Below, one piece after another: positions 11,252 through 58,240 of a stretch of 64,000 nt of DNA; the first letter of the stretch is position 1; the number at the start of each line of letters is the position of its first letter. The stretch covers positions 620,001 to 684,000 of the forward strand of contig NZ_VSLZ01000001.1 in the NCBI RefSeq assembly GCF_010747475.1, read 5' to 3'. The position numbers and the translations under genes were made by a program. Below the pieces are notes generated by a model that was given only the letters and a program-made list of their open reading frames with translations, was not told the origin of the DNA and ran no database searches. Source of the stretch: Halorussus sp. MSC15.2. GTDB lineage: Archaea > Halobacteriota > Halobacteria > Halobacteriales > Haladaptataceae.

Positions 11252-11729
11252 GAGTCGTCCTTCGTGGTACGGGATTGTAAGCGTCCCGCTAGGGCGAACG
11301 TTCGGGTCGTAAATCACGTCTCGAACCGCAGGTGAACGGGGATTGAACGACCGACCGTCGCGTCCCGGCCACGACAGCACCTTTAAGTACGAGAAGGCGA
11401 AACACCCATCTGAGATTCTGCGGGCGGTGTTAGTCGTGTCGTGTGTCTGGCGGCGTACCGCCCGATAGCCGCGAGTTCACGGACCACGGGGTCGGCCCGA
11501 TGATGCCGTCCGGCGGAGGGCACCCTGCAGTCGCGTTCGCGGAAGGACTTCGGCGACCGTTTCGGCGCGTCCGCGCTGGCCGCGTCTCCGCGGTCCTTCT
11601 GCTCTTTTGCCCTTTCGTCACTCCGAGGACCGCGAGGCCGTAGCGGCGACTCCGCGCGTCTCGTCGCCTCCTCGCGTTCTCGCCGACATAGCAAGACCCA
11701 TCCCGGCCCGTTCCCAACCTCCACGTATC
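11252..11729. other. 478-bp intergenic region, no confident gene
   Basis: It separates the divergent J-domain and DUF255 genes. A TATA-like CTTTAAGTA lies at 11381-11389. A short plus-strand frame at 11443-11643 starts with GTG and begins with Gly/Pro-rich sequence, but its second half is Arg-rich and its end looks non-coding, so I do not call it. Part of the region must hold the promoter of the 11730 gene. No tRNA or known RNA family was recognised. Confidence 0.5.
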
Positions 11730-13565
11730 ATGAATCAAAGCGCCGAGGAGACCAAAGTCGAGTGGCGCGAGTGGGGCGAGGCGGCCTTCGAGGAGGCCCG
11801 CGAGACCGACCGACCCGTCCTGCTCTCGCTGTCGGCGACATGGTGTTCGTGGTGCCACGAGATGGACCGCGAGGCGTACAGCAACCCCATGGTCGCCGCG
11901 AACGTCAACGACTCGTTCGTCCCGGTCCGGGTGGACATCGACCGACAACCCCGGGTTCGGGAGCGGTACAACATGGGCGGGTTCCCCTCGACGGTGTTCA
12001 CCACGCCGGACGGCGACCTGCTCACCGGCGCGACGTACCTCGACGTGGACGCCACGCGGCAGGTCGTCCAGCGCGTCCGCGACCTCTGGACCCACAAGGG
12101 CGAGGACGCCGCCCGCATCCCGCGGAGTCTCCGCGAGGACCCGCCCGCCGGGGAACTCTCGCCCGAAATCGAGCGCCTCGTCGCCGGGCAGTTGGGCGAC
12201 AAGTTCGACGACCAGTTCGGCGGGTGGGGCGACAGCGAGAAGTTCCCGCTGCCCCGGACCGTGGAGTTCGCGCTCAAGCGCGAGCGCGAACAGGCCCTCG
12301 CAACGCTTCAGGCCGTCAGCCAGTACCTCTACGACGACTACGACGGCGGCTTCTTCCGGTTCGCCGAGGGCCGCGACTGGACCGACGTCCACCACGAGAA
12401 ACTGCTCTCGACCAACGCCGCGCTGGTCCGGGCGTTCGCCAACGCCTACCTCTACACGGGCGACGACGACTACCGCGACCCGGCCGAGCGGACCGTCGAG
12501 TACCTGACGACCACCCTCTGGAATAGCGCGGAACGGAGTTCCGCGGACAACGTGAGCGGGCAAGGCCCGCGAGCGGGCGGCGACGCCTTCGCCGGAAGTC
12601 AAGCGCCGGGCGACTCGCCGGACGTGCCCGACAGCGCGGGCGAAAATGGCGGTATCGGCGAAGACGGGGACGACAGCGGCGACGGAGTGACCGGCGAGGC
12701 AGACGTCGGCGAGTCCGAGTCCGCCGACGACCCCGACTACTACGCACTCGAACCGAGCGACCGCGAGGCGGCCGACGCGCCCGCGGTGGACCCGACCGCC
12801 TTCGCAGACTCGAACGCGATGGCCGCCGACGCCCTGCTGACCTACCACGCCTACACGGACGACGAACGCGCACGCACGTACGCCGAACGCGCGCTCGACT
12901 ACCTCACCTCCGAACTGGTCGAGGACGGCGAGGTGACCCACTTCGACGCCACCGAGAGCGATTCGAGCGAGCGCAGTGAGTCGGGACTGCTCGCCGACCA
13001 CGCCCACCTCCTCTCGGCGCTCACGACCGCCCGGCAGGTCACCGGCGACGAGGCGTACCTCGACGCGGCGCGCGACGTGGCCGACTACGCGCTCGACGAA
13101 CTCCGTGAAGACGGCGAGTCGGGCGCGTTCGTGGACGGTCCCCGCGAGGGACCGGGCCTGCTCGACCGGCCGCTGCGACCGCTCGACCACAACGCCGAAA
13201 TCGCCGACGCGCTCGTGGACCTCGCAATCCTGACCGGCGAGGACCGCTACCGGGAGGCTGCCGAGGGTGCCGTCGCGGCGTTCGCCGACGCGGCTGACCG
13301 CTTCGGGGTGCAGGTCGCGGCCTACGCCACCGCCGCGGCCCGCCTCTGTCGGGACCCCCTCGTGGTGGAAGTCGCCGACGACGCCGGGTCGGACCTCCAC
13401 CGCGCCGCGATGCGCGTGGCCGACCACGAGAAGGTCGTGATTCCGGGCGTCTCGGGCGACGAGTACGAGCGCGGTAGCGCCTACGTGGTCGTCGATGGCG
13501 AACGCTCGAATCCCGTGAATACGCCCGAGGAACTGAGCGAACGCGTCGCCGAACTGACCGAGTAG
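11730..13565 (+). CDS. DUF255 thioredoxin-domain protein (YyaL/spermatogenesis-associated 20-like)
   Basis: 611 residues from the ATG at 11730. The N-terminus is a thioredoxin fold of the DUF255 type, with ATWCSWCHEMDREAY holding the C39-x-x-C42 pair. The remainder is an (alpha/alpha)6-like helical domain (FGGWGDSEKFPLPRTVEFAL, LLSTNAALVRAFANAYLYTGDDDY, LRPLDHNAEIADALVDL). Between the two halves, about residues 265-345, is an acidic Gly/Ser/Asp-rich insert that family members usually lack; its DNA contains short palindromes (see repeats). The biochemical function is not established; a redox or sugar-processing role has been suggested for the family. Confidence 0.9.
   Translation: MNQSAEETKVEWREWGEAAFEEARETDRPVLLSLSATWCSWCHEMDREAYSNPMVAANVNDSFVPVRVDIDRQPRVRERYNMGGFPSTVFTTPDGDLLTGATYLDVDATRQVVQRVRDLWTHKGEDAARIPRSLREDPPAGELSPEIERLVAGQLGDKFDDQFGGWGDSEKFPLPRTVEFALKREREQALATLQAVSQYLYDDYDGGFFRFAEGRDWTDVHHEKLLSTNAALVRAFANAYLYTGDDDYRDPAERTVEYLTTTLWNSAERSSADNVSGQGPRAGGDAFAGSQAPGDSPDVPDSAGENGGIGEDGDDSGDGVTGEADVGESESADDPDYYALEPSDREAADAPAVDPTAFADSNAMAADALLTYHAYTDDERARTYAERALDYLTSELVEDGEVTHFDATESDSSERSESGLLADHAHLLSALTTARQVTGDEAYLDAARDVADYALDELREDGESGAFVDGPREGPGLLDRPLRPLDHNAEIADALVDLAILTGEDRYREAAEGAVAAFADAADRFGVQVAAYATAAARLCRDPLVVEVADDAGSDLHRAAMRVADHEKVVIPGVSGDEYERGSAYVVVDGERSNPVNTPEELSERVAELTE
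12527..12578. repeat. Cluster of triloop palindromes inside the DUF255 linker
   Basis: Within coding sequence: CGCGGAAC-GGA-GTTCCGCG at 12527-12545, GCGGGC-AAG-GCCCGC at 12556-12570, and the overlapping GCCCGC-GA-GCGGGC at 12565-12578. They encode the start of the low-complexity linker that interrupts the protein. Palindromes with three-base loops recur elsewhere in this window. Confidence 0.6.
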
Positions 13566-55876: not shown

Positions 55877-58240
55877 ATGAGCCGGATAGCCGGAGGGAGT
55901 ATTCGCGTTCTCCACGTCGACGACGAACCTGCCTTCGCGGACACGGCCGCCGAGTTCCTCGAACGCGAGGACGACCGGTTCACCGTCGAGACGGCGAGCA
56001 GCGCGGGTGCGGGCGTGGCGCGACTCGCCGAACGGGAGTTCGATTGTATCGTGTCGGACTACGATATGCCGGGGAAGAACGGTCTGGAGTTCCTCGAAGC
56101 AGTCCGCGCGGACCACCCCGACCTGCCGTTCATCCTGTTCACCGGCAAGGGGAGCGAGGAAGTCGCCAGCGACGCTATCTCGGCGGGCGTGACCGACTAC
56201 CTCCAGAAAGAGCGGGGAACCGACCAGTACACGGTGCTGGCCAATCGCGTCCAGAACGCCGTCGAGCGGACCCGCGCCGAGTGGGAGCGCCAGCGCCAAC
56301 TCGACGCCATCGAAACCGCTCGGGAGGGCATCGGAATCCTCGACGAAGACGGTCACTTCCTCTACGTCAACGAGGCCTACGCCCGACTGTTCGGGTACCA
56401 GTCCGAGGAACTGCTCGGCGAACACTGGGAGTTGATATACCCCGACGAGGACGTCTCGCGGGTTCGTGAGGAGATTCTCCCGACGATTACGGAGACGGGT
56501 TCGTGGCAAGGGACGACGACCGGGCGGCGCGCCGACGGCAGTACGTTCGTCGCGAACCACACGCTCGCGACGACCGACCGGGGGGAACTCATCTGCACCG
56601 TCCGCAAGACGTCCGACTGCGAGGGGTTACAACAGAAACACGAGTTGGTGGTACGAGCCTCGACGGACGCGTTCTTCGACTGGGACCCGGAGACCGACGA
56701 GGTCACCCGCAACGACGAGTATCTCGCGCAGTTCGGCTACGACGCGTCCGATATCGAGAGCGACACCGACTGGTGGCGCGACCGAATCCACCCCGACGAC
56801 CGCGACCGCGTGTTCTCGGCGGTGGAACGGGCCGTAGAGAACCCCGAGATTTCGTACGACGAGACGTACCGCTTCCGGAAGAAAGACGGCACGTACGGCT
56901 TTCTCCGCACGCGCGGATACGTCGTCTACGACGAGCACGACGACCCTCAACGGATGGTGGGCGTCCACATCGACGTCACCGACCGTAAGGAACACGAGCG
57001 CGACCTCAACCGTCTCCACGACGCGACGAGCGACCTCATACAGGCCGACACTCACGAGGCCATCGCGGAGACTGCGGTCGAGACCGTCCGCGAGGTCCTC
57101 GACATGCCCAACAACGCGCTCTGGCTTCACGACGAGACCGACGACACCCTCGAACCGGTAGCCCTCACCGACGAGGCGGCCGACCTCGTGGGCGAACCGC
57201 CCGTCTTCGAGCCGGGCGAGAGCCTCTCGTGGGAGGTGTTCCAATCTCAGGAGAGCGAGGTGTTCGAGAACGTCGCCTCACAGCCCGGACGGCACAATCC
57301 CGAGACGCCCATCCGCAGCGAAATCATCCTGCCGCTGGGCGACCACGGCGTGATGAACATCGGTTCGACCGCGGTCGGCGCGTTCGACGAGACGGACGTC
57401 TCGCTGGCCCGGATTCTCGCGACGAACGTGGAGGCGGCACTGACTCGCGCCGACGGCCGCCGCGAACTGGCCCGGCAACACGAGCGACTCGACGAGTTCG
57501 CCAGCGTGGTCAGCCACGACCTCCGGAACCCGCTCAACGTGGCCAACGGACAACTGGACTTGGCCCGGAAGGAGTGTGACAGCGACCACCTCGACGAGGT
57601 GGCGGACGCCCACGACCGGATGCAGACGCTGATAGACGACCTGTTGACGCTCGCCCGCGAGGGAGACTCGGTCGTCGAGACGGAACCGGTCGCGCTCCGG
57701 GCGATAGCCGACACCTGCTGGGGAACCGTCCCGACGGACGGGGCGACCCTCGTCACCGACGCGACGCGGACGGTCCGGGCCGACCGCGGTCGCCTCGGGC
57801 AGTTGCTGGAGAACCTCTTCCGGAACGCCGTCGAACACGGTTCGACGAGTCCTCGTTCACAGGTTCACGAGGACGTTCATCAGACTTCGTCTGATGCAGC
57901 CCATCAGAACGCGAAGCGTTCTGAGGACGCCGTGGAGCATGGCTCCACGAGCAATCGTCCACGGGACGATGGCGCCGTCGAACACGGTTCGACGGACGTG
58001 CGGGTGACGGTCGGCGGATTAGACGACGGGTTCTTCGTCGCCGACGACGGGCCGGGAATCCCCGAGAGCGAGCACGGCGACGTGTTCCGGCGGGGGTACT
58101 CCACCGCGAGGGAGAACACCGGGTTCGGTCTCGCCATCGTCGAGCAGATTGCGGAGGCCCACGGCTGGAACGTCCGCGTCACCGAGAGCGCCGACGGCGG
58201 CGCGCGATTCGAGATTACCGGCGTCGCGTGCGTCGAGTAA
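55877..58240 (+). CDS. Receiver-PAS-PAS-GAF sensor histidine kinase
   Basis: 787 residues from the ATG at 55877; an in-frame TTG/GTG further upstream is less likely. Receiver domain with DD at 15-16, phosphoacceptor Asp61 in IVSDYDMPG and Lys111. Two PAS domains (about 145-240 and 260-370, second with PAC), GAF (375-525), H-box VVSHDLRNPLNVANGQ (His547), N-box NLFRNAVEHG (Asn650), G1 DDGPGIP (723-729) and G2 GFGLAI. Between N-box and G1 is a 60-residue expansion in which AVEHGST appears three times, encoded by seven palindromes (see repeat). Confidence 0.92.
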   Translation: MSRIAGGSIRVLHVDDEPAFADTAAEFLEREDDRFTVETASSAGAGVARLAEREFDCIVSDYDMPGKNGLEFLEAVRADHPDLPFILFTGKGSEEVASDAISAGVTDYLQKERGTDQYTVLANRVQNAVERTRAEWERQRQLDAIETAREGIGILDEDGHFLYVNEAYARLFGYQSEELLGEHWELIYPDEDVSRVREEILPTITETGSWQGTTTGRRADGSTFVANHTLATTDRGELICTVRKTSDCEGLQQKHELVVRASTDAFFDWDPETDEVTRNDEYLAQFGYDASDIESDTDWWRDRIHPDDRDRVFSAVERAVENPEISYDETYRFRKKDGTYGFLRTRGYVVYDEHDDPQRMVGVHIDVTDRKEHERDLNRLHDATSDLIQADTHEAIAETAVETVREVLDMPNNALWLHDETDDTLEPVALTDEAADLVGEPPVFEPGESLSWEVFQSQESEVFENVASQPGRHNPETPIRSEIILPLGDHGVMNIGSTAVGAFDETDVSLARILATNVEAALTRADGRRELARQHERLDEFASVVSHDLRNPLNVANGQLDLARKECDSDHLDEVADAHDRMQTLIDDLLTLAREGDSVVETEPVALRAIADTCWGTVPTDGATLVTDATRTVRADRGRLGQLLENLFRNAVEHGSTSPRSQVHEDVHQTSSDAAHQNAKRSEDAVEHGSTSNRPRDDGAVEHGSTDVRVTVGGLDDGFFVADDGPGIPESEHGDVFRRGYSTARENTGFGLAIVEQIAEAHGWNVRVTESADGGARFEITGVACVE
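57829..57994. repeat. Seven consecutive palindromes inside the histidine kinase N-box/ATP lid
   Basis: Stems with three-base loops: CGTCGAAC-ACG-GTTCGACG (57829-57847), CATCAGAC-TTC-GTCTGATG (57878-57896), TCAGAACGC-GAA-GCGTTCTGA (57904-57924), CGTGGAGC-ATG-GCTCCACG (57931-57949), ATCGTCC-ACG-GGACGAT (57954-57970), and CCGTCGAAC-ACG-GTTCGACGG (57975-57995). A longer loop stem GTCCTCGT/ACGAGGAC lies at 57849-57874. The first and last encode AVEHGST in the same frame. Confidence 0.85.

Follow-up and report, generated by a model that had tools for sequence, protein, structure and literature searches.

How a row of back-to-back DNA palindromes came to lie, in frame, within the catalytic domain of a sensor kinase is the question raised by this locus. 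The window (the whole stretch of 64,000 nucleotides analysed, from Halorussus sp. MSC15.2) carries at positions 55877-58240 of the forward strand a kinase gene whose product has receiver, two PAS, GAF, HisKA and HATPase_c domains as judged by Pfam, and which is 90% identical in amino acids, over the best segment, to its orthologue in H. aquaticus XZYJ18, the closest named relative of this Halorussus genome. Seven inverted repeats occupy positions 57827-57994, in frame, in the interval from the N-box to the G1 box. The features of the locus are as follows.

55877..58240 (+): hybrid histidine kinase gene, 787 aa (open reading frame, Pfam domains and H. aquaticus orthologue)
57824..57826 (+): AAC codon for the N-box Asn, final host codon ahead of unit A (sequence; junction AAC^GCC)
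57827..57928 (+): 102 bp (A+C) missing in the H. aquaticus orthologue (pairwise alignment; ends uncertain to within a few bases)
57827..57874 (+): unit A, 48 bp, AVEHGST-SPRSQVHED, two hairpins (solo copies in AMP-ligase and HAD genes; covariation)
57829..57847 (+): hairpin 1, stem 8, loop 3 (repeat finder)
57849..57874 (+): hairpin 2, stem 8, loop 10 (repeat finder)
57875..57928 (+): unit C, 54 bp, VHQTSSDAAHQNAKRSED, two hairpins, GAGGAC at its end (solo copies elsewhere; covariation)
57878..57896 (+): hairpin 3, stem 8, loop 3 (repeat finder)
57904..57924 (+): hairpin 4, stem 9, loop 3 (repeat finder)
57929..57973 (+): unit B, 45 bp, AVEHGST-SNRPRDDG, two hairpins (B units of other kinases; covariation)
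57931..57949 (+): hairpin 5, stem 8, loop 3 (repeat finder)
57954..57970 (+): hairpin 6, stem 7, loop 3 (inverted-repeat scan)
57974..57994 (+): terminal AVEHGST copy (sequence, repeat finder)
57975..57995 (+): hairpin 7, stem 9, loop 3, palindrome shared with hairpin 1 (repeat finder)

The initial annotation had described seven inverted repeats, six of them with three-base loops, and all were located where it had put them; its placement of the array between the N-box and the G1 box was right by domains, alignment and structural model. AVEHGST is indeed encoded three times in frame, with the first and last palindromes identical in sequence, and the idea of a coding palindrome repeated in frame and bearing the N-box peptide is supported. 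The six hairpins with 3-nt loops have perfect stems of 7-9 bp.

That the array is a product of chance, or an assembly artefact, is scarcely credible. The array segment contains 6 perfect stems of at least 7 bp with a loop of 3, whereas 1000 synonymous-codon resamples of the same segment gave a mean of 0.28 such stems (maximum 3) and codon shuffles a mean of 0.02 (maximum 1), so that the palindromes are far more frequent than in randomised coding sequence; across 1.264 Mb of this contig, moreover, no other site brings together more than two such stems. These tests rule out chance. Misassembly is possible at repeats, and one kinase of this genome has a frameshift inside a unit (contig C1, 46.0 kb), but the same units recur in genomes assembled independently, one of them the complete chromosome of H. 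aquaticus. Genome-wide, hairpins with 3-nt loops were not in excess (281, with other loop sizes at about 300), and the effect is therefore local. Folded as single-stranded DNA, the segment reached -60.5 kcal/mol (z = -9.1, DNA parameters), and single units gave z values of -3.7 to -4.5.

Comparison of the array-bearing kinases of this genome and the genus revealed that the arrays are combinatorial, being built from three units that each contain two hairpins: A (48 bp, AVEHGST-SPRSQxHED), B (45 bp, AVEHGST-xNRPxDDx) and C (54 bp, VHQTxSDAAHQNxxRSED). Units A and B both open with GCCGTCGAACACGG, the N-box sequence (AVEHG), or with a synonymous form of it; unit C has no N-box sequence. The units mostly end in GAC, followed by G, though some B units end in GGC or AAC, and their junctions are mostly GAC^G, with AAC^G in kinases and GGC^G once, in a metallo-hydrolase gene. 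The (G/A)AC^G sites in these genes usually fall between codons, and the junctions are compatible either with target choice or with a short target duplication. In the window kinase the N-box Asn, which is invariant (N121) in the kinase-domain alignment, is kept in place, and the AVEHG that follows it comes from unit A and rebuilds the N-box; from its sequence, the terminal AVEHGST copy is probably the displaced remainder of the host N-box. A fourth, longer two-hairpin coding unit (EGRSPS..SSGxSPRED, end GAAGAC; L096 and L135, the latter at C1:802964-803025) occurs both in a LarC-like gene and in another kinase of this genome, where it lies in a different loop.

All presence/absence events reported here come from comparisons between species. 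In the window kinase gene the 102 bp formed by A and C are the only indel relative to the H. aquaticus orthologue, and this difference could be either a gain here or a loss in H. aquaticus. A second kinase (contig C8, 30 kb) has an empty N-box site, NAVEHGGSGVT, in this genome and a 93-bp A+B insert in its H. aquaticus orthologue, which is the only gap of at least 6 across 3.3 kb at 95% identity. Whole-unit differences separate three kinase orthologue pairs, two of them additional to those above, and a further pair has retained the same single unit. Copy number in relatives is thus not fixed: both copy number and content vary among close relatives. The window array is also 93% identical over 161 bp to the array of a non-orthologous H. 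aquaticus kinase, so that arrays pass between paralogues as well. In the kinase with the frameshift mentioned above, a single B unit is present and the frameshift lies within it, so that N-box and G1 box are split apart; H. aquaticus has an intact orthologue with a larger array. Across the class, matches to the VEHGST palindrome were present in 146 of the 194 sampled haloarchaeal genomes and 48 of the 65 genera, and the loci read from this search were mostly kinases with the insert after the N-box, with a few chance matches elsewhere.

Closely related units also lie in frame within otherwise intact genes of other families (assigned by Pfam), at sites that are empty in relatives. An AMP-ligase contains a 48-bp unit, VGED[AVEHGSTTPRSQTHED]EERERRDES, where the empty relative reads VGEDEERERRDES; a PEBP gene contains a 54-bp unit, DVPDD[VHRTTSDAAHQNLTDSED]AATLAV, against the empty DVPDDAAALAV. 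An adenylate kinase has a 57-bp unit in H. aquaticus and an empty site in this genome, and a rhodanese/metallo-hydrolase has the 54-bp unit C in one species only. A HAD hydrolase carries one 48-bp unit in H. aquaticus (SPED[AAGNGPASPRSQAHED]A) and four in tandem in this genome, and is empty in other relatives; the tandem suggests slippage or repeated insertion. The C kind of unit stands alone in the PEBP and metallo-hydrolase genes and is in frame in TnpB-like genes of other genera, assigned as such by a RuvC-like motif (the fragment itself gave no Pfam match), and in the fibrillarin of Natrinema thermotolerans. A search for an empty fibrillarin relative recovered none, and we infer that this copy is an insertion from its fit to the unit family. 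The initial annotation had proposed a slippage or recombination device. This accounts for later changes of the arrays, but slippage and recombination cannot have brought the same or related units to exact positions within genes of other families, and dispersal by insertion is therefore needed.

Inside intact genes the units measure 45, 48, 51, 54 or 57 bp and are free of stops, whereas a length of 56 bp was found for four copies on plasmids, which lie in or close to IS6-type transposase frames that appear disrupted. Multiples of 3 bp in the former against 56 bp in the latter fit a mobile element whose coding copies survive only if length and frame fit. These four C-like units (L339-L342) are on plasmids of Haloterrigena, Haloferax and Natrinema, and C-like matches were seen in 34 plasmid records from many genera.

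What is conserved in the units might be the peptide rather than the DNA, namely an acidic loop selected for regulating kinase activity, with the palindrome as by-product. All intragenic copies examined are in sense orientation and encode polar acidic peptides, which together with the restored N-box favours this reading, as do the VEHGST matches in three-quarters of the sampled genomes at what are mostly kinase loci. However, some orthologues lack the insert, the same peptides occur in non-kinase enzymes, and residues vary (HQNAKRSED, HQKSKISED, HQNLTDSED) while C stem 2 remains 100% paired. The share of paired cells was 98.6% in unit C, 98.6% in B and 91.1% in A; 8, 20 and 13 cells, respectively, were changed on both sides, numbers unmatched by any of 500 shuffles, although these are not counts of independent events as the copies are related by descent. 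Many of the two-sided changes in B and C alter amino acids, and G-U cells numbered only 0, 1 and 2 in C, B and A. Likewise, in 135 VEHGST 17-mers from across the class, among the matches listed, 80% had complementary bases at the third-codon partner positions 3-15, where shuffling gave a mean of 48% and a maximum of 59%, and 74% at positions 6-12 (shuffled mean 44%, maximum 57%), whereas non-partner positions were near expectation. Stems that covary while loops and residues change, with G-U nearly absent, indicate that the DNA hairpin is conserved and not the peptide, and we regard the peptide explanation as improbable. Still less probable is that hairpins in the mRNA act in expression or mRNA stability: the segment does fold strongly, albeit by DNA parameters, but G-U pairs are scarce despite the abundance of two-sided changes. 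Rfam families gave only chance-level hits over the array. A phage search gave no match.

A purely local origin deserves more weight, but is in our judgement unlikely. Here N-box DNA that is naturally palindromic would have been multiplied by slippage, hairpin-templated repair and gene conversion between paralogues, with no transposition. VEHGST is indeed palindromic by nature at the codon level, arrays have been swapped among paralogues, the HAD gene shows tandem expansion, templated repair would likewise keep stems paired, and in the kinase arrays a 14-bp repeat at both ends also permits plain recombination. Against this, A and C are precisely placed in unrelated genes whose relatives are empty, and C, although devoid of N-box sequence, is found in TnpB-like, fibrillarin and IS6-type transposase genes.

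We therefore think it likely that the window array consists of three tiny mobile elements stacked one behind another and belonging to a haloarchaeal family of protein-coding palindromic elements that resembles the RPEs of Rickettsia. Each unit of 45-57 bp with its two DNA hairpins would insert at a (G/A)AC^G site. As units mostly end in GAC and start with G, each insertion would remake the target and allow units to pile up; as A and B start with AVEHG, insertion directly after the N-box Asn would rebuild the N-box, and kinase N-boxes would be a hot spot because the units bring and restore this motif. Mobilisation may be of a single-stranded DNA type, supplied in trans, and ectopic recombination between N-box copies together with tandem slippage may then reshape the arrays. 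A more far-reaching version, in which ultra-small coding transposable units throughout the haloarchaea insert between codons at GAC^G, recreate their target, repair the N-box with their own sequence and have remodelled kinases class-wide, is put forward tentatively, and we would not quite give it even odds. An obligatory Y1 transposase partner was considered and rejected: the enzyme (PF01797) was detected in only 10 of 18 Halorussus genomes, and none was detected in G200 and G162, both of which have lineage-specific insertions. Conserved hairpin clusters between genes also contain the C hairpin (CATCAGAACGC..GCGTTCTGAGGACGC), and two of these clusters are directly upstream of tnpB. Four such clusters (L050, L054, L176 and L178) consist of several short-loop hairpins including that of unit C; the L054 cluster gave a weak sot0042 match.

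Most known protein-coding palindromic elements come from Rickettsia and Wolbachia, and we know of no settled account of how they move. RPEs are palindromic stretches that enter unrelated protein genes without breaking the frame, for the most part in regions that tolerate them (PMC10969869, PMC2996958), and the haloarchaeal units share in-frame palindrome insertion into unrelated genes with them, with the Wolbachia WPE and with the coding palindromes of Methanocaldococcus jannaschii. They are shorter (45-57 bp, against the roughly 150 bp quoted for RPEs) and, unlike RPEs, pile up at one conserved site of a kinase family, with A and B carrying N-box sequence of their own target. By analogy, the haloarchaeal units work like RPEs; the likeness is one of behaviour, membership of the named family aside. 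PARCEL elements, tandem coding repeats with dyad symmetry that are thought to be mobile and occur in membrane proteins, with none reported in Archaea (PMC2996958), are similar in their tandem coding repeats and dyad symmetry when compared by description alone.

With two subterminal hairpins, a short specific target ((G/A)AC^G junctions) and a length of 45-57 bp, the units also resemble non-autonomous IS200/IS605 derivatives such as REPINs and PATEs (PMC3733652, PMC3119063). The PATEs of Haloquadratum walsbyi and the IS200/IS605 (IS1341) elements are small, with near-terminal palindromes, a short target and no target duplication (PMC3119063). Size, near-terminal palindromes, a short target and a haloarchaeal host are thus shared, and C hairpin 2 lies just upstream of tnpB and unit C inside some TnpB-like genes. 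However, PATEs are not described as in-frame coding inserts in PMC3119063, and tnpA was not detected in 8 of 18 Halorussus genomes. CGTC-tagged REP elements, which have 4-5 nt loops, a CCA tail and intragenic copies (PMC3733652), are alike in their stems of 7-9 bp, their intragenic copies and the lack of a known dedicated transposase. GACG, the reverse complement of the CGTC tag, is present at most unit junctions but may belong to the target. Assignment to this class, defined by an 8-9 bp stem, a 4-5 nt loop and a CCA tail, fails on loop length, as the haloarchaeal loops are 3 (or 10) nt, and a CCA tail was not recognised; nor are CGTC-REPs described as haloarchaeal in PMC3733652.

In the protein the insert is predicted to be accommodated as a disordered loop. 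An AlphaFold2 model, taken with 52 haloarchaeal kinase domains, shows the insert, at about residues 127-179 of 257, as a loop of low confidence between the N-box helix (108-126) and a strand (180-186); pLDDT is about 46-66 in the loop and averages 83.8 over the model. The ATP lid of HATPase domains lies between the G1 and G2 boxes. The suggestion that the array tunes the lid was consequently abandoned, as the predicted structure puts the insert between the N-box helix and the next strand, outside the lid.

We found no earlier account of haloarchaeal coding palindromes or VEHGST repeats in the open-licence literature. The units would explain the odd AVEHGST repeats of haloarchaeal kinases, and suggest that a mobile element can enter a catalytic motif by bringing a copy of that motif. 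Because empty and filled sites are cleanly told apart, the junction can be recognised, the units can be counted and many of the species can be cultured, the family makes the mechanism testable. Further in-frame hairpins were seen in other genes. In the window, a thioredoxin-domain gene (11607-13565) has a hairpin pair at 12527-12570 (CGCGGAACGGAGTTCCGCG and GCGGGCAAGGCCCGC), the second hairpin of which is missing in H. aquaticus and both of which are missing in several other species. Two other genes have in-frame hairpin pairs at C1:62129-62169 and C1:127217-127257 (L102 and L105; DTVEGTSTSLQPPVED and EASEPRSEDSRASPDA), and the N-terminus of a TrmB-like regulator (L055) carries three tandem units of the VERSSTSNRTQSDD type.
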